A stretch of 64,000 nucleotides of DNA, taken from contig CAILKE010000004.1 of the NCBI GenBank assembly GCA_903834765.1, positions 1 to 64,000 on the forward strand, written 5' to 3'. Below, one piece after another: positions 54,926-63,448 of the stretch (position 1 is the first letter of the stretch; every line of letters starts with the position of its first letter). The stretch is from an uncultured Bacteroidota bacterium. Lineage in GTDB: Bacteria > Bacteroidota > Bacteroidia > B-17B0 > Aurantibacillaceae. Position numbers and translations under genes: made by a program. Below the pieces are notes generated by a model. It was not told the DNA's origin and made no database searches. It saw only the letters and a program-made list of their open reading frames with translations.

Positions 54926-56191
54926 TTATTCTTTTAGAAGTTTTATTTTTTGATTTCCAATTGCTAACAAATAACAGCCAGGGCTCAAATCTGTTACATT
55001 AATTTTTTCATATTCATTCCCGGTTAATAAAACTTCTCTGATTAAATCGCCAAGAAGATTATAAATAGATGCACTCTTTATTGATTTGCCATATAATCCT
55101 GAAATATTAATTTCTGAACTAATTGGATTTGGAAATACATCGATCTTATTATTATTATTTACTTGAACACCGGCTGCTATTGGCGCCTGGCCGCAATTCC
55201 ATTGACTATAATCTATAGAGTTAGCTGTTCTCCATGCGTTAAAGGCGGTTTGCTTTTGCGAGATGGTAGCCCAAACAATTGTCCCCAACATATTATTTAA
55301 AGAATCAACTACTGTTGTAAGTCTTTGGCGATAATTAACCAAAGAGTAATGTTTAAAATTTGTCATGATAGAAGCGACATAAAATTTATTGGGAGGATAA
55401 GCTCCAGTTTGTAATTTATTTGTAATGTCTCTAAAATAGTTAACAATCCATTGCACAGACACATTACTATCTGGGATTTGCGGAGAACACCCATTACCTT
55501 GCAGCCAAGCATTTGTTGAAGAGGGCGTATGCGAATAAAATCCGATTGAATCATTTGCATTAGATGGTTGCCAAATCCCATAATTATTTGCGTCGTGTTT
55601 ATGAGGAGGACTACTTCCTGGCCCCCACATTACTTGCGCTTTCCATGGCTTGTGAAACCTAGCGCCAGGATAATTAACATTTTGGTAAAGTGTCCAATCT
55701 TGTCCTGTAAACGGATTAGGAGTTGCACTTTGGGTCCAGCATAAAAATCCTCCTAAGTTATGAGAAGCTACTGCGCCAGTAGAATCAATCATGTGCGCAA
55801 CATCTGCAATATCTAGTGTATAGATTGGTGTTGAAGTTTTATAGCGTGGGTCAATTTCAATATAAGCACCTGCTGTACCGCCTTTTTTATTGCAGTATTC
55901 TAATACATCAACCATAGAGGTCGCTGCACTTTCTTGAGTCATTGAAGCGAAAACAAATTTTTGACATGTTTCTAAATTCCATTTAGCACCTTTTGCATAA
56001 ACCATATCTGCAATCTTTCTAGCTGTATCTGCTGTTGCTTGAAAGAAAGATGGATTCGTATCGTATGGCTCCGCATAGGCTCCAGTACTGGTCATTTCAT
56101 TGTGTGATACAATATTTACATAAAGTTTTGGAGTTTGTGCTTTAGTTGATAATACTCCTAGTAATATGGAAATGGTTATTATTTTTTTCAT
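54926..56191 (-). CDS. Secreted protein with type A T9SS sorting domain, function unknown
   Basis: The 421-residue protein has a signal peptide (about 1-18), a ~320-residue domain that I do not recognise, and a C-terminal type A sorting domain of about 70 residues, starting near 350 (IDVFPNPISSEINI, SIYNLLGDLI, LSPGCYLLAIG and the end KIKLLKE). The N-terminal domain has several Trp, His and Asp, such as SHNEMTSTGAY, AYIEIDPRYKT and HNLGGFLCWTQ, loosely recalling polysaccharide-acting enzymes. It is probably exported and then anchored or released. Confidence 0.75.
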   Translation of the reverse strand: MKKIITISILLGVLSTKAQTPKLYVNIVSHNEMTSTGAYAEPYDTNPSFFQATADTARKIADMVYAKGAKWNLETCQKFVFASMTQESAATSMVDVLEYCNKKGGTAGAYIEIDPRYKTSTPIYTLDIADVAHMIDSTGAVASHNLGGFLCWTQSATPNPFTGQDWTLYQNVNYPGARFHKPWKAQVMWGPGSSPPHKHDANNYGIWQPSNANDSIGFYSHTPSSTNAWLQGNGCSPQIPDSNVSVQWIVNYFRDITNKLQTGAYPPNKFYVASIMTNFKHYSLVNYRQRLTTVVDSLNNMLGTIVWATISQKQTAFNAWRTANSIDYSQWNCGQAPIAAGVQVNNNNKIDVFPNPISSEINISGLYGKSIKSASIYNLLGDLIREVLLTGNEYEKINVTDLSPGCYLLAIGNQKIKLLKE

Positions 56192-56245: not shown

Positions 56246-57712
56246 CTACATCATCTTAAAATTACCTGCTTCAATTAAGTCTTCTTCACTTAACATGCTA
56301 ATATCAATTAAGTCAGATCTATATTGTGCACGTATGCCTTTGATCCAGCGTTTGGCGCGTTCAGATAATTGAAAGTCATCAGACATTAATCTCCCACGTA
56401 AAACTAAAATACCTAGGTCTGCGCCTTCATAAATATAATCATCCTTTTGCGTGATTTGTAAAAAGAAAGCCTCGTTATCATCAACTACAGATTGACGATG
56501 TGCATCCATTTTTTTAAATACGATGTTGCCATTTTTTTTCATTTCCCATATTCCTGATTCAGGAACTTTGGTTGCTAATTCCAATGATTTTTTAGTATGC
56601 TTAATTACCAATTGGCTCCAACTATCCATGTTTTCTGCCTTCATCCAACGATCCACTAATTCGTTCACGTTAATGGTATAAGGTACATCCATCCATTCTA
56701 ATAAATGAAATAAGAACATAGGCACATCCATCATCGCAAATTTCGAATGATTAGTTAAAGAGCTGACACCCGACACACGAGGATTTAATTCTCCTAAATA
56801 AATTTCACCGTTCTCTTTATCAATTAAAAAATCTAATTCAAAATAACCTTTGTAACCTTCTTTGCCTAACTGATCTCCAAACTTTTGCGTGTAGGTTTTT
56901 GCTTTTTCGCGGATGTCGGCATTAAAAGCATTCCCGAAAATTTCGTTACCGCACCAACCACCTTTATATGGCGTAAGTTCTTTAAAGCCTACTAACTCAG
57001 TCATTAAAGGCGCTACCAACGTACCATGTTGTGTCACACATCCTTCTATTGCAGTGCCATAGCAGTTAATGCGCTTCATGATCTTTACTTCTTTCTCTTT
57101 GGTAATTTCTTCCGCATGCGTATTAAATTCTTCTTCATTAGAAATGAAAAAAGTAGTATGCCCCGAATCGCCATAAGGTGTTTGCACGACTAAATGCTCA
57201 CCTAATTTTTCAGATAAGGTACTTAAGTGGTTGTAATCCGTTACTGGAGATAATACATTGGGAACGCAAGCTACACCAGCTTTTTCAGCGATGCGATTGG
57301 TGTTTACTTTGTTATCTAAAAAAGAACGTAATTGAGCAGAAGGAAAACACACATCCAATCCTAATGCTTTGGCAAGTTGTTCTGTTTTTTCGTCAAACAT
57401 TAAAAACAAGGCTTTGCCCATATTGCTATTCACCGCTCTTGAGGTAATGTAATCAATCACCTCGGGGTGTTGCAATAAATAATTATTGATGTCTTCTATG
57501 CTTGTGAATTCTTCATGCGGCACTTCTACTTTCGGAGAAAATAAATTGGGGTGTTGCCCATCATAGGAATCAATGTGACTAATGTACTTGAAATTAGACA
57601 CCCATTCGTCCATACCCAATAAATTAAAATTGGTAGCACTGATGAAATAGATAGGCGTTTCATTTGATTTAAAAAACGCTTTGATGTCGGAGATGCTATG
57701 TAGTGTTTTCAT
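56246..57712 (-). CDS. ATP-grasp ligase of unknown substrate
   Basis: The 488-residue protein has an ATP-grasp fold: a pre-ATP domain (about 1-130), the nucleotide-binding HLVVQTPYGDSGHTTFFIS near 174 (glycine-rich loop), and the Mg-binding ELDFLID followed by IYLGELNPRVSGVSSLTNHS near 300 (E..NPR). ATP-grasp enzymes form C-N or C-S bonds through acyl phosphates. It is likely to be labelled biotin carboxylase by similarity, but no biotin-carrier domain or partner is present. Its ATG lies one base after the stop of the PLP decarboxylase gene, so they are coupled. Confidence 0.78.
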   Translation of the reverse strand: MKTLHSISDIKAFFKSNETPIYFISATNFNLLGMDEWVSNFKYISHIDSYDGQHPNLFSPKVEVPHEEFTSIEDINNYLLQHPEVIDYITSRAVNSNMGKALFLMFDEKTEQLAKALGLDVCFPSAQLRSFLDNKVNTNRIAEKAGVACVPNVLSPVTDYNHLSTLSEKLGEHLVVQTPYGDSGHTTFFISNEEEFNTHAEEITKEKEVKIMKRINCYGTAIEGCVTQHGTLVAPLMTELVGFKELTPYKGGWCGNEIFGNAFNADIREKAKTYTQKFGDQLGKEGYKGYFELDFLIDKENGEIYLGELNPRVSGVSSLTNHSKFAMMDVPMFLFHLLEWMDVPYTINVNELVDRWMKAENMDSWSQLVIKHTKKSLELATKVPESGIWEMKKNGNIVFKKMDAHRQSVVDDNEAFFLQITQKDDYIYEGADLGILVLRGRLMSDDFQLSERAKRWIKGIRAQYRSDLIDISMLSEEDLIEAGNFKMM

Positions 57713-57713
57713 A

Positions 57714-60455
57714 TTATTTTTTTACTTTGACTTTTGTTTCAGGCATTCGGATGGTATGCATAGAACCCATAGCAGAGATGGTGTTTTTTCGATTGAGCGC
57801 TTCGATGGTAAATACTTTTAATCCAAGTTCTGCTTTGTAGCCATGTATTTCTTTTACATCCAAGGCAATCATAAAGCGTATGATGTCTTCGCTTACTACT
57901 TGTCCGGGCACTAAAATTGGGAATCCTGGAGGGTAAGGAATTACAAACGATGTTGATACTAATTCTTTATTAGTAGCAAGTTCTTTTAAACAATCCTTCA
58001 ATAAAATATATTCACATAGTTCTTCTTCATATGCTAAGAAAAAGGCTTCGCGAATATTTCCTCCGGGCACGCCAGGAGATGCTTGAAAGGAACGATGAAA
58101 GTAACTGAAATCAGGCAAAGGAGGTACATCTTTAATTAAAGAGGTGATTTGTTTTTTTGAAATTTCTGCTTCGCGTTTGTTTAAGGAACGATTGCTTTCA
58201 TCTAATTCATCCGCAATTTGTAATAAAGCATTGATCAAAAAAGTAACACTGCCTCGCGTGGTTCCAATGTTGGTCATAAACAAAACCGTGTTCCGCGATG
58301 TTTTGTTTACCTGAATATTGAAACGATCCATCAAGTAACTGTTTTTAAAATCATCGCCGGTGATGCCTGCTTTTCCAACGGAAAGGGTAACTTTAGTAGG
58401 ATCTAATACAAACTCATCTTTTTCCCAGGCCTCTTCCATACGATCCCAACCATCATGATCAGTATAGTATTCGCTTGAACTACATTGTCTAAATTCTGCA
58501 GGAACAATATCCTTTACATTTAGTACGTGAAAATATTTACTCAATTTTGGATGGTCTTGTATCTTGGAGCGTAAGATCATTGCCATTTCAATACTTTGTT
58601 CTACGAGCTCGTAACCTTCTAATTCTACTTGTCTACGTCCTATATCTAATGATGCTAAAATTTGATAGTTGGCAGACGTCGTTGTATGCGTCATGTATGC
58701 CTCTTGAAAATTATCAGCCACACGACGGCTAAACTCTTCATCCCACACTTGTATCATAGAGCCTTGACGAAAGCATGATAAGGTTTTGTGAGTACTTTGT
58801 GTTGCATACACGCGTATCTTTACTTTTTCAGGATCGGGTAGAGTAGGTATCTCTCCGGGTTTTAAACCAGCAATGTGTTTTTTGTAACTTGCTTTATATT
58901 CTTCACTTCTGTACTTGTGAAATAATTTTTGCGCCACATACATGCCTGTACGTTGCCTGTAAGTATAGGTAAAGCTGGCAAAGGCAAACCATGCTTCGTC
59001 CCATAAAAAAACCATATCAGGTTTAATGGCTAATACTTCTTCCATTACTTTTTCAACATTGTACACTAAGCCGTCAAATGTACAGTTGGTTAGTAATAAC
59101 ATTTTTACTTTATCTAAACGACCGGCTTTGCTTAACGAAATTAAGCGTTCTTTGATGATTCGCAATGGCACAGCGCCATACATCGAATATTCCTGAATAG
59201 GAAAAGAATCTAAGTATGCTGGGAAAGCCCCTGCTAATACCAATCCGTAATGATGTGATTTGTGACAATCTCTGTCAACCAATACCACGTCTCCTGGTTT
59301 GATTAATGCTTGCTGCACAATTTTATTAGCAGTAGATGTTCCATTGGTAACATAAAAGGTATGCTCCGCACCAAACGCTTTAGCTGCTTTTTCTTGTGCT
59401 TTTTTTAAGGGGCCTTTAGGTTGTAACAAAGAATCTAATCCACCATTAGTAGCAGATGTTTCTGCTAGAAACACATTTCGTCCATAGAAATCACCAAAGT
59501 CAGAAATCCAACGCGATTTAAAAACAGAGTTACCTCTTGATATTGGCATTGCATGAAATATACTTGTTGGCTTTTTGCTATACTCTGTTAAGGCATTATA
59601 GAAAGGCGCTTCGAAGCGTTCATTAACACCGCTGATAATCGTTAAGTGTAATTCCTGCACATCTTCCATACGGTAAAAAATGCGACGGAATGCTTTTAAG
59701 GTAGAGTCTTCTAAATGAGTTAAGGCTGTATCAGTAATGTAATATAAGTCTAACTCAGGTCGGAATTGATGAATGTATTTTCCTAATAGGGGACCAATTT
59801 CAGCATCACTGATTGTTGTGATGTCGATTTTTAAAACAGTTTGAATAAATGGTCGGATATGCTTGTTAATATTGCTAGAAGCTAATAGCGGAGCATATCT
59901 GATACAAGCTGCTTGAATGTTATAATTAAAAAACAAACAAATCAGAGCGTCTTGAAAAGAACGTTGTACCAAAATATCATAAGTTAAATTGTCGTTAGGA
60001 TTAATGAGTTCTTTAAATTTGTGTTTAAGAATTATCTCTTCTGTATGAGACATGTCCTCTACAAAAAGTACTTCGAAATAATTTTTTTTAGTATGTTCCG
60101 TCGAATTGGAAGAAACTTCATTAGCATAATCATTTGAGAATTTTTCTTCTAAAATTTCGGGATGTGTTCTGTAGTTATCGCTTACTAAAAGCGAAACAAT
60201 TTCAGCTATTTGATTACTAACCGCTTTGAATTCCCGCTTTTCGAAAGACGCCATTAATTTTCGAACTAACGGTGTACCAGGAAAAGAAAAATATTGCTCT
60301 ATGCTTAATAGATTTTGAAGAACATCGTTCAATTCTTTCAGATGCTTATTTAACGTTTCGTTTTGTTGTAAACGATTCAGGTTATTACTTTTTTCCTTAA
60401 GCTCATTCCATAAATCAATTCTCAATTGATTGATGTTATAATGTTTTGAGTTCAT
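57714..60455 (-). CDS. Orn/Lys/Arg decarboxylase-family PLP enzyme with long N-terminal region
   Basis: The 913-residue protein has a ~300-residue N-terminal region without a clear catalytic motif, then the major domain of Orn/Lys/Arg decarboxylases: FYVTNGTSTANKIV (near 370), VDRDCHKSHHYG, TNCTFDGLVYN, WDEAWFAFASF, and the PLP lysine in ATQSTHKTLSCFRQGS (K557). The C-terminal domain has VIPYPPGFPILVPGQ near 848. Such enzymes usually make agmatine, cadaverine or putrescine. It is coupled to an ATP-grasp gene, an arrangement I do not recognise as characterised. The fold is sure, the substrate is not. Confidence 0.85.
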   Translation of the reverse strand: MNSKHYNINQLRIDLWNELKEKSNNLNRLQQNETLNKHLKELNDVLQNLLSIEQYFSFPGTPLVRKLMASFEKREFKAVSNQIAEIVSLLVSDNYRTHPEILEEKFSNDYANEVSSNSTEHTKKNYFEVLFVEDMSHTEEIILKHKFKELINPNDNLTYDILVQRSFQDALICLFFNYNIQAACIRYAPLLASSNINKHIRPFIQTVLKIDITTISDAEIGPLLGKYIHQFRPELDLYYITDTALTHLEDSTLKAFRRIFYRMEDVQELHLTIISGVNERFEAPFYNALTEYSKKPTSIFHAMPISRGNSVFKSRWISDFGDFYGRNVFLAETSATNGGLDSLLQPKGPLKKAQEKAAKAFGAEHTFYVTNGTSTANKIVQQALIKPGDVVLVDRDCHKSHHYGLVLAGAFPAYLDSFPIQEYSMYGAVPLRIIKERLISLSKAGRLDKVKMLLLTNCTFDGLVYNVEKVMEEVLAIKPDMVFLWDEAWFAFASFTYTYRQRTGMYVAQKLFHKYRSEEYKASYKKHIAGLKPGEIPTLPDPEKVKIRVYATQSTHKTLSCFRQGSMIQVWDEEFSRRVADNFQEAYMTHTTTSANYQILASLDIGRRQVELEGYELVEQSIEMAMILRSKIQDHPKLSKYFHVLNVKDIVPAEFRQCSSSEYYTDHDGWDRMEEAWEKDEFVLDPTKVTLSVGKAGITGDDFKNSYLMDRFNIQVNKTSRNTVLFMTNIGTTRGSVTFLINALLQIADELDESNRSLNKREAEISKKQITSLIKDVPPLPDFSYFHRSFQASPGVPGGNIREAFFLAYEEELCEYILLKDCLKELATNKELVSTSFVIPYPPGFPILVPGQVVSEDIIRFMIALDVKEIHGYKAELGLKVFTIEALNRKNTISAMGSMHTIRMPETKVKVKK

Positions 60456-60588: not shown

Positions 60589-61026
60589 TTAATGTTTCGA
60601 ATGCAACGCTAATCTGTTTCCTTCCGAGTCGATAAATAAAGCAAAGTAACCGGCCGTTTCACTTAAAAATGTTTTTTCTAATACTACTCTACCACCAGCT
60701 TCATTTACTTTTGATAACACATTATTTAAATCATCACCACCATTTAAATAAACGAGTGGCCCAACTTCGCTAGGTATGCAGCCGTTTCCAGTAACAATAG
60801 CGCCACTGATGCCATTTTCTGCTGGAAAAAAACCCATAGCAAATCCATTTAATTCTACGGTTGTAATTTCTATACCATAGATGTAATTAAAAAAGGCTAC
60901 AGACCGATAGTGATTATATGCTGGAATCTCGAACCATGTCACAAAATTTTTAGATACAGATTGCTGTTTTAATTTTTGAAGATTGGCTTCTTTAATTCTA
61001 CTTTTTAAATTGACAGTTGATCCCAT
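60589..61026 (-). CDS. VOC-family (glyoxalase-like) protein
   Basis: The 145-residue protein has the vicinal-oxygen-chelate fold of two betaalphabetabetabeta units: FVTWFEIPAYNHYRSVAFFNYIYG near 28 (core EIPAYN, 33-38) and ALFIDSEGNRLALHSKH at the end. Members are metal-dependent enzymes or resistance proteins, often annotated as glyoxalase or extradiol dioxygenase; the substrate is unknown. The start is the ATG at 61026; the frame runs 10 codons upstream only to a TTG. Confidence 0.82.
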   Translation of the reverse strand: MGSTVNLKSRIKEANLQKLKQQSVSKNFVTWFEIPAYNHYRSVAFFNYIYGIEITTVELNGFAMGFFPAENGISGAIVTGNGCIPSEVGPLVYLNGGDDLNNVLSKVNEAGGRVVLEKTFLSETAGYFALFIDSEGNRLALHSKH

Positions 61027-61168
61027 AACACTTTTTTTGTTAGCAATTGGAGACAATTTTATAGCTTGTTCCCAAAATACTGATACGTAAATATCCTTTT
61101 TTTAGTTGATATGAAAGAATAATTTGAACTACACATTTAACTGATTTACCTCAATTCTATATTTTGAT

Positions 61169-63448
61169 ATGTTTTTAGAGCGTACTCACCGATTTATATT
61201 AGTAATTTTAGAGTGTTATTATGCCCATAAAAACAAAAACGTGAAGTCCTTGTTTGAAATTATAAAAACTAATTATTGGTTTCAATGCATATTGAACAGT
61301 TACAGTTTGATGTTTTTTTCATTAAACAATGTGTTTGCTTCAATTATTATTTTAGTGACATTTTTTTCTCCTACTATCGGTTTAAGTGGATTTTTAGCAG
61401 TTTTGCTTATTAATGGATCAGCCTTTATTATGGGATTTAATAGAGATGAAATTAAAAATGGATTATTTGGATTTAATGCTTTATTCTTAGGATTGACTTT
61501 AGGCTATGAGTATTCTTTTAACATTACGTTTGTTATTTTATTTATGACGGCAATTCTCATTTTGTTATTAATCACAGTTTGGTTAAAAGGATTGTTTGCA
61601 ATACATAATTTACCCTTCTTATCTTTTCCTTTTATTATTGCTTATTGGATAGTTTCTTTAGCAACATCTAATTTTACTAATATACTCTTAGATGAATCTC
61701 ATATCTATGCTATTAATGAGATTGCCAAAAGTCAATCTTCTTTATGGTATCAGTTTGTTCATTCACTGGATGATATTTCATTATTTCCATTCGCATTAAG
61801 TTTTTTTAAAACCTTAGCAGGTACTTTTTTCCAAACGAGTATATTAGGTGGTGTTTTTATAGCCTTTGGATTATTGTATTTTTCGCGAATAGCTTTTTCG
61901 CTAAGTGTAATTGGATTTTATTTAGCCTATGTTTTTTATTCAGTTTTTGGAGCTGATGTTAATGATTTGACGTATAATCTATTAGGCTCAAATTTTATTT
62001 TTATAGCAATTGCGATTGGATGCTTCTTTTTAATACCCAATACGTATAGTTATATTACAGTTATTATTTTAGTACCAATACTGTTATTGGTTTTATTATC
62101 ATTAGGGAAAGTACTTTCTGTTTTTCAATTAAAAGCCTATTCATTATCATTCAGTGTGGTTTGCACAGCTTTCTTGTTTTCATTAAATCAGCGATGGCTT
62201 TATCGTTATTTACATCTTATTACGATACAATATTTTTCGGCAGAAAAAACAATTTATAAATACCTTAATTCTATTCAAAGATTTAAAAACGAACACCTTT
62301 ACAAAATTGCGTTACCCTTTTCTGGAGAATGGAATGTAAGTCAGGGATATGATGGGAAAATTACACATTTAGGAGATTGGAGTAAGGCCTTAGACTTTGT
62401 AATTGTTGATTCTAAATCTAATACGTATCGTGAGCCATCAAGTGCACGCGAAGGATTTACGAGAGAAAATTTTTATTGTTATAATAAAGAAATCTATGCA
62501 CCTTATGATGGTTATGTTTATGATATCATTAATACTGTAGAAGAAAACGATGTTGGTGAAGTGAATACAGAACATAACTGGGGAAACACCATTATACTAA
62601 ATCATTTGAATGGTTTGTTTTCACAGATCAGTCATGTTAAAAAAGATTCGTTTGGCGTTTTTATTGGACAATATATTACTAAAGGAACATATCTGGCAAC
62701 ATGCGGAAACTCTGGTCGTTCGCCAGAACCACACATTCATTTTCAATTACAAACGATTCCTACTATTGGAGCTCAAACACTAGAGTATCCTATTTCATAT
62801 TTCATTGAAAGAAATGGCACTGAAAAAACAATAAAAATCTCTGAGGTACCAAAAGAAGGGACTTTTATTAGTAATGTTCAAGTGAATGAATTATTAGTAG
62901 TTGGTTTTTCTTTTTTACCTGGGCAAAAAATTTCATTTCAAAATGAAAGCTCAAGAGCTATAATTAATTGGGAGGTTTTCACAGATTCCTATAACAGAAA
63001 ATATATTTATTGTGAAGAAAGTAAATCCTATGCATATTTTGTAAATGATGGCGTGATGCTTTATTTTACAGACTATGAAGGGGATAGAAGTTCTTTGTTA
63101 TTTAATTTTTATTTAGCCTCGTATAGGCAGTTGCTTGGATACTACGAAAACATTTCAGTAACAGATAATATTCCTTTAATTCATTTCAATAATCCATTCA
63201 TTCAATTTTTTCAGGATTTTGTGGCACCTTTTTATGTGTTTACAAAAGCTAATTATACATCTACTTTTAGTTTTACGGATAATGTATATGCGCCTCAAAA
63301 AGTCATGATTAATGCTGAAGTAACAGCAAAATTCATCAATCATACATTCAAAAAAATCAATTTTGAACTTGAATTAAAAGACAATAAAATTCAACGGTTT
63401 ACGATTCATAACAAACATAAAACAGAAATATACCATATGGTATCTTAA
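61169..63448 (+). CDS. Urea transporter fused to an M23 metallopeptidase domain
   Basis: The 759-residue protein joins a urea-transporter-like membrane part (about 40-350, ten or so helices, with FNRDEIKNGLFGFNALFLGLTLG near 89; N90, N101) to an M23 peptidase domain (about 380-550). The zinc ligands of M23 can be placed as H400 and D409 in THLGDWSKALDF and the HxH pair H522/H524 in PEPHIHFQL. The C-terminal ~200 residues are beta-rich and not recognised. M23 enzymes cut peptidoglycan cross-links. The start is uncertain: a -7-like TATATTTTG ends 2 bases before the ATG, so GTG at 61241 is another choice. Confidence 0.8.
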   Translation: MFLERTHRFILVILECYYAHKNKNVKSLFEIIKTNYWFQCILNSYSLMFFSLNNVFASIIILVTFFSPTIGLSGFLAVLLINGSAFIMGFNRDEIKNGLFGFNALFLGLTLGYEYSFNITFVILFMTAILILLLITVWLKGLFAIHNLPFLSFPFIIAYWIVSLATSNFTNILLDESHIYAINEIAKSQSSLWYQFVHSLDDISLFPFALSFFKTLAGTFFQTSILGGVFIAFGLLYFSRIAFSLSVIGFYLAYVFYSVFGADVNDLTYNLLGSNFIFIAIAIGCFFLIPNTYSYITVIILVPILLLVLLSLGKVLSVFQLKAYSLSFSVVCTAFLFSLNQRWLYRYLHLITIQYFSAEKTIYKYLNSIQRFKNEHLYKIALPFSGEWNVSQGYDGKITHLGDWSKALDFVIVDSKSNTYREPSSAREGFTRENFYCYNKEIYAPYDGYVYDIINTVEENDVGEVNTEHNWGNTIILNHLNGLFSQISHVKKDSFGVFIGQYITKGTYLATCGNSGRSPEPHIHFQLQTIPTIGAQTLEYPISYFIERNGTEKTIKISEVPKEGTFISNVQVNELLVVGFSFLPGQKISFQNESSRAIINWEVFTDSYNRKYIYCEESKSYAYFVNDGVMLYFTDYEGDRSSLLFNFYLASYRQLLGYYENISVTDNIPLIHFNNPFIQFFQDFVAPFYVFTKANYTSTFSFTDNVYAPQKVMINAEVTAKFINHTFKKINFELELKDNKIQRFTIHNKHKTEIYHMVS

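Follow-up and report, generated by a model that had tools for sequence, protein, structure and literature searches.

The window analysed here is a stretch of 64,000 nucleotides of contig CAILKE010000004.1 (assembly GCA_903834765.1), from an uncultured Bacteroidota bacterium of the family Aurantibacillaceae. It carries a row of three genes, for a small VOC protein, a pyridoxal phosphate (PLP)-dependent decarboxylase of the Orn/Lys/Arg (OKR) family (DEC) and an ATP-grasp protein (LIG), beside a gene for a urea-transporter fusion (Table 1). An earlier reading made from the letters alone (hereafter the sequence-only reading) had placed the decarboxylase gene one base from that of the ligase, with the VOC gene about 130 bases upstream as a possible third member, and this layout was confirmed. 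A single base separates the DEC stop from the LIG ATG, and 133 bases separate the end of the upstream VOC gene from DEC on the same strand, the VOC start being most likely the ATG at 61026 rather than the TTG at 61056 (homologues begin MG[GS]). As shown below, DEC and LIG are co-inherited, usually beside genes of gamma-aminobutyrate (GABA) breakdown, and thus appear to form the nucleus of an amino-acid pathway not yet described.

Table 1. Genes and sequence features of the VOC-DEC-LIG locus.
Feature	Position in window	Strand	Basis
DEC, 913-aa PLP-dependent OKR-fold (aspartate-aminotransferase fold) amino-acid decarboxylase	57714..60455	-	PF01276; PDB homologues
LIG, 488-aa ATP-grasp protein, biotin carboxylase/PurK/GARS architecture	56246..57712	-	NF005096; AlphaFold; Foldseek
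VOC (glyoxalase-fold) protein, 145 aa, heads the VOC-DEC-LIG row	60589..61026	-	neighbour counts; predicted fold
Divergent urea-transporter + M23 peptidase fusion, lineage-specific neighbour	61169..63448	+	PF03253, PF01551
DEC K557, predicted Schiff-base lysine in S-x-H-K (STHK)	58785..58787	-	invariant in family alignment; aligns with LdcI K367
DEC N717-R721 (NKTSR), in place of EK[TS]G of Arg/Lys decarboxylases	58293..58307	-	family alignment
DEC Q852 (PYPPGFPILVPGQ; Arg/Lys decarboxylases have Glu)	57900..57902	-	invariant in family
LIG C-terminal peptide ...EAGNFKMM, 3' of a variable linker	56249..56272	-	homologue comparison

GTDB species genomes were scanned with LIG, resulting in 338 confirmed loci, of which the best 80 (those closest to the window) were compared together with added plasmid loci. 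A few genomes are represented twice in this set, and some taxon labels of metagenome-assembled genomes (MAGs) may be wrong. DEC lay near LIG in 64 of the 68 loci with enough upstream sequence, the four exceptions being plasmids of Shinella, Sinorhizobium RAC02, Roseateles XES5 and Cupriavidus necator N-1. Where both genes were complete, they were on the same strand in every case (73/73), with a median gap of 133 nt. Among the window's genome and its 40 nearest relatives, DEC and strong LIG matches occurred in the same 10 genomes and were both absent from the other 31. A phylum-wide sample (n = 198) yielded three genomes with both genes and one with DEC alone, the gene there running off a contig end. 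Furthermore, the pairwise distances of DEC and LIG were correlated in a mirror-tree comparison (r = 0.848; 0 of 2000 permutations), in which the permutation controls relatedness only partly. The pair is conserved across very different bacteria, and the genes do not occur mainly apart, so that the co-occurrence on which the sequence-only reading had hung its proposal was borne out. At some loci, L013 (MENELSYNIRGAAFKVHTELVPGLLESVYE...) and L024 among them, an extra small open reading frame (ORF) lies between DEC and LIG.

Elsewhere the pair is part of a longer operon with the order class-III aminotransferase (AT3), C-N hydrolase (NIT), VOC, DEC, LIG, C45 N-terminal nucleophile (Ntn) hydrolase and aldehyde dehydrogenase. 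Neighbour clustering identified it in numerous Bacteroidota, as well as in MAGs carrying the labels Ignavibacteriota, Balneolaceae and Gemmatimonadaceae, with single genes missing in many loci. AT3 was best matched by GABA transaminases (491 bits, below the equivalog cut-off), its closest solved relatives being GabT and PuuE, and the aldehyde dehydrogenase by succinate-semialdehyde dehydrogenases (SSADH; 507 bits, also below the cut-off). The C45 protein passed NF040521 (164 vs 85 bits) and had no sequence relative in the PDB, while NIT is a nitrilase-superfamily protein far from the named equivalogs (best 79 of 410 bits). Across phyla, DEC-LIG is usually accompanied by amidohydrolases, and a GABA transaminase and an SSADH-like enzyme are often present too. 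On proteobacterial plasmids the core is DEC-LIG-C45, mostly with NIT and at several loci followed by peptide-type ABC transporters. The gene set of the long operon is of a catabolic type, and its content points to catabolism via an amide intermediate towards GABA or succinate. A radical-SAM maturation pair (C-methyltransferase and epimerase) of the kind that modifies ribosomally synthesised and post-translationally modified peptides (RiPPs) was also seen a few kb upstream of one such core on a Rhizobium plasmid (L121:2418-6237).

In a profile search DEC matched PF01276 at 269.1 bits (cut-off 27), and it is the sole PF01276 gene of its genome. It retains the catalytic lysine of the fold, so the earlier assignment of a 913-residue OKR-family decarboxylase with K557 stands. 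Residues 9-892 of DEC align with the 933-aa PDB chain 9N0O (E 4e-236 for 9N0O, 9N0N and 9N0P); because the alignment spans this length, the long N-terminal region noticed in the sequence-only reading is real, and DEC is, as judged by this alignment, a full-length homologue of Mycobacterium tuberculosis Rv2531c with the N-terminal extension included. Structures of Rv2531c exist, and its activity has not been established (PMC12910592). A survey of the OKR fold has described actinobacterial and cyanobacterial members with unknown, probably non-polyamine function (PMC8503589).

The pocket of DEC departs from that of decarboxylases acting on basic amino acids. The Arg/Lys decarboxylases aligned have V-E-K-[TS]-G and PYPPGxPxxxPGE; in every DEC aligned the Glu of the former (LdcI E526) is replaced by Asn717, and PGE by PGQ. 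We take the VEK[TS]G Glu, conserved in Lys/Arg/Orn decarboxylases and missing from DEC, to contact the side-chain amine of basic substrates. R721 is kept in all aligned loci but one. DEC also shares DEAW[FY]A[FY]A with the aligned arginine decarboxylase, which leaves room for a guanidino substrate. The two Glu losses set against this arginine decarboxylase-like motif allow more than one substrate class and make the plain label ‘Orn/Lys/Arg’ doubtful.

LIG scored above the cut-off of the NCBIfam equivalog NF005096 ‘biotin carboxylase’ (PRK06524; 725.9 vs 684 bits), a family for which no experimentally tested function was found in the open-licence literature. Its AlphaFold model (pLDDT 86.5) has the ATP-grasp fold and was best matched in Foldseek by biotin carboxylases and PurK, at 10–14% identity. 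The Mg-binding E...E-x-N of ATP-grasp enzymes is present, with E292, E308 and N310 invariant. The biotin-carboxylase motif N-x-R-x-Q-V-E, in contrast, reads ELNPR[VI][ST]G in LIG (ELNPRVSGVSS in the window, ELNPRVTGASS in the family), the QVE position being occupied by [ST]G[VA]. In biotin carboxylases the Glu of QVE activates bicarbonate. Neighbour clustering revealed no biotin carrier or carboxyltransferase genes among the recurring neighbours of LIG. A literal biotin carboxylase was rejected on these two grounds, and because QVE is replaced and a carrier or transferase partner is missing, we consider a ligase reaction likelier than carboxylation of biotin. LIG is a probable acyl-phosphate-forming amide ligase. 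Beyond a variable linker, its C-terminus ends in E-x-G-x-F-K-[MIL]-[ML] from Bacteroidota to Shinella and Cupriavidus; this tail, which could be a docking tag or carry a modified lysine, is missing from many Flavobacteriia and rhizobial copies.

VOC was found in 41 of the 65 LIG loci with enough flank, and at ≥80% identity in the same 9 family genomes as DEC-LIG, so its suggested third membership holds as a frequent one. The window's VOC had no Pfam match at E ≤ 0.01; a relative passes PF00903 (21.5 vs 20.6 bits), and the predicted fold is glyoxalase-like (top Foldseek match glyoxalase I, TMq 0.63). We allot it no step in the proposed pathway.

The window's lineage has a shorter form of the locus. 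No NIT-like, C45 or AT3-orthologous genes were found anywhere in the window's genome or in the close kin searched, and in place of the downstream enzymes VOC-DEC-LIG lies beside the urea-transporter–M23 fusion (PF03253, 141 bits; PF01551, 44.5 bits). An orthologue of the fusion (73% identity or more) adjoins DEC-LIG in 9 of 9 family-level genomes having the pair, and among the loci compared the fusion accompanied only the reduced row, never the long operon; its close orthologues were seen only beside VOC-DEC-LIG, with ∼40%-identical copies elsewhere in the class. Since the window's DEC is nested inside the operon-linked clade of the tree, the short form is most plausibly a reduced version of the long operon. 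For the product of the reduced module, the simplest guess is a conjugate to be stored, exported or used. The sequence-only reading had envisaged a purely synthetic pathway; this is not supported in that form by the catabolic set of amidohydrolases, GABA transaminase and SSADH-like enzyme found across phyla, yet with the degradative genes missing the reduced VOC-DEC-LIG is possibly a synthetic module. Directly 3' of LIG (54926-56191, minus strand) lies a gene for a 421-aa protein whose only Pfam domain is a type IX secretion sorting tail; no such gene adjoined LIG in the related loci compared. A search upstream for a Bacteroidota promoter motif found none close to the operon, and matches were no more frequent than in shuffled sequences.

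Loci at which the two genes part provide a further view of the likely substrate. The Shinella, RAC02 and XES5 plasmids have NIT, LIG and C45 with no DEC alongside, and their clusters encode a 5-guanidino-2-oxopentanoate decarboxylase (732 vs 500 bits), an amino-acid permease, an agmatinase-family ureohydrolase, an aldehyde dehydrogenase, a D-amino acid dehydrogenase, a racemase and RidA. In the Aru/Kau/Gbu routes of arginine catabolism such a gene set yields 4-guanidinobutyrate, then GABA and urea, and the Shinella-type cluster would accordingly lead from arginine through 4-guanidinobutyrate to GABA. Conversely, rhizobial DEC proteins that have no LIG form a clade of their own in the tree, and one or two AspT-type aspartate:alanine antiporters adjoin all four of the LIG-less DEC genes examined (L125, L132, L133, L134); the two antiporters tested scored 704 and 562 bits against a cut-off of 547. 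An aspartate 4-decarboxylase and an HdeA-family protein lie near one of them, and an SSADH and an aminotransferase near another. The antiporters hint at an acidic-amino-acid decarboxylation cycle in these rhizobia. Both kinds of exception would fit the GABA node better than the polyamine node. Taken together, N717 and Q852, the AspT neighbours and the Shinella arginine-to-GABA cluster make a GABA-type product at least as likely as a polyamine, and the basic amino-acid substrate of the sequence-only reading, as it was put, is not supported by the pocket changes or by the AspT context. Agmatinase and urea as a regular operon part were rejected, agmatinase-type genes being confined to the surroundings of the Shinella-type loci and of L087, where two ORFs separate one from the C-N hydrolase downstream of it or nearly so. 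In the window's genome PF00491 had four matches, as many as in relatives without DEC-LIG. Canonical glutamate decarboxylase (PF00282), considered as another possible source of GABA, had one weak match (85 bits), also found in such relatives and hence of no weight either way.

Our tentative reading, which we hold at somewhat less than even chances, is that VOC-DEC-LIG forms the core of an undescribed amino-acid pathway proceeding via a GABA-type amine and an amide. We infer its substrates, product and order of steps as follows. DEC would strip the alpha-carboxylate from an amino acid to give an amine, our first choice being a GABA-type compound, with glutamate or a gamma-substituted glutamate as its source. 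Spending ATP and passing through an acyl phosphate, LIG would then link this compound to a partner by an amide bond. In the long operons the C-N hydrolase and/or the C45 Ntn hydrolase would break the amide, and central metabolism would receive the four-carbon unit by way of GABA transaminase and a dehydrogenase of the succinate-semialdehyde type. The window's lineage would have lost the downstream genes, and its reduced module, beside the urea-transporter fusion, would either make the conjugate or put it to another use. Several points weigh against this proposal. If DEC already made GABA, there would be no evident need for ATP-dependent conjugation and two hydrolases; R721 is replaced by Ile in the mycobacterial relative; the DEAW[FY]A[FY]A motif is common to DEC and the arginine decarboxylase aligned; and the specificity of AspT rests on a family name. 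Since the window's family has no orthologues of the downstream enzymes, the GABA context is also borrowed from other lineages. A bolder and rather doubtful extension would see in DEC and Rv2531c-type proteins an OKR-fold branch outside polyamine metabolism, one that forms GABA or gamma-aminobutyryl amides and, with the ATP-grasp ligase, C45 and the nitrilase-family hydrolase, constitutes a new multi-phylum, conjugate-based GABA pathway, turned by the window's lineage into a synthetic module for a GABA amide.

The strongest competitor, somewhat unlikely in our estimate, is a catabolism of basic amino acids resembling the Puu pathway, in which DEC would form agmatine, putrescine or cadaverine, LIG would acylate the amine, much as PuuA attaches glutamate, its free end would be oxidised by the transaminase and dehydrogenase, and a hydrolase would release GABA or 5-aminovalerate, to be finished by the same enzymes. 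The OKR-fold membership and arginine decarboxylase-like motif of DEC agree with such a route, as do GabT and PuuE as the nearest solved relatives of AT3, the agmatinase-family gene at L087, the arginine catabolic genes around NIT, LIG and C45 in Shinella and the urea transporter adjoining the reduced module. It is opposed by the family-wide change of the acidic anchor to Asn and Gln, by the accompaniment of the LIG-less DEC clade by AspT antiporters rather than APC exchangers, and by the lack of an agmatinase-type gene as a regular neighbour.

The remaining explanations appear far less probable. That LIG carboxylates, for example, a guanidino, urea or amine group would agree with the equivalog name, the top Foldseek matches and the urea transporter and ureohydrolases near it in some lineages; with the bicarbonate-activating Glu missing and no biotin carrier or carboxyltransferase among the recurring neighbours, we consider it improbable. 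Equally hard to credit is a DEC serving pH homeostasis or acid stress (decarboxylation consumes a proton) with LIG merely co-transcribed: DEC relatives do adjoin AspT, aspartate 4-decarboxylase and an HdeA-family chaperone, but a transporter rarely adjoins DEC in the LIG clusters, DEC and LIG have stayed linked in different phyla while diverging in a correlated way, and at loci lacking DEC, LIG is retained among other catabolic genes. Lastly, both domains are individually common and could have met as chance or generic operon neighbours with no shared function; we rejected chance pairing, and regard this explanation as most improbable, on the basis of the conserved adjacency, the identical presence and absence in 41 relatives and the mirror-tree signal.

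The pair anchors a multi-phylum operon for which no published description was found in the open-licence literature, and its first gene encodes a homologue of a functionally orphan enzyme from M. tuberculosis whose structure has been solved. Its neighbours narrow the likely chemistry (GABA or guanidino metabolism with an amide intermediate) to a short list of substrates, and once the two families are assigned, the doubtful names ‘arginine/ornithine decarboxylase’ and ‘biotin carboxylase’ could be put right in many genomes.

Among known systems, Rv2531c (PDB 9N0N, 9N0O, 9N0P; ‘probable amino acid decarboxylase’) resembles DEC over its full length, N-terminal region included, and in its NKTS- and PGQ-type pocket changes, differing by the Ile at the R721 position. 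LdcI, AdiA and SpeF share with DEC the fold, the PLP lysine and the D-x-A-W and HT[ST]TS motifs; they match it at only about 100–200 bits, however, and DEC is without their VEKTG and PGE Glu residues and has extra N-terminal residues. LIG falls within NF005096, and true biotin carboxylases have its architecture in common but not the QVE motif. The sequence-only reading knew of no described pathway with such a pair, which agrees with our literature search for the cluster but not for the type of chemistry: the tyrosine decarboxylase MfnA and the tyramine-glutamate ligase MfnD act in methanofuran synthesis (PMC8141765), so that a PLP decarboxylase with an amine ligase is not new in general. The chemical logic proposed for DEC-LIG is the same, PLP decarboxylation and then ATP-dependent amine ligation, whereas the families differ (PF00282 for MfnA, PF01276 for DEC; LIG belongs to NF005096, its best matches being carboxylases rather than MfnD), and MfnA-MfnD, in contrast to the long operon, is biosynthetic and has no hydrolases. 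Closest to the proposed sequence of steps is the Escherichia coli Puu pathway through gamma-glutamylputrescine, which likewise ligates, oxidises and hydrolyses before GABA transaminase and SSADH act. Its PuuA is a glutamine-synthetase-type ligase and its PuuD a hydrolase of a different kind, unlike the ATP-grasp protein, C-N hydrolase and C45 hydrolase of the DEC-LIG operon.

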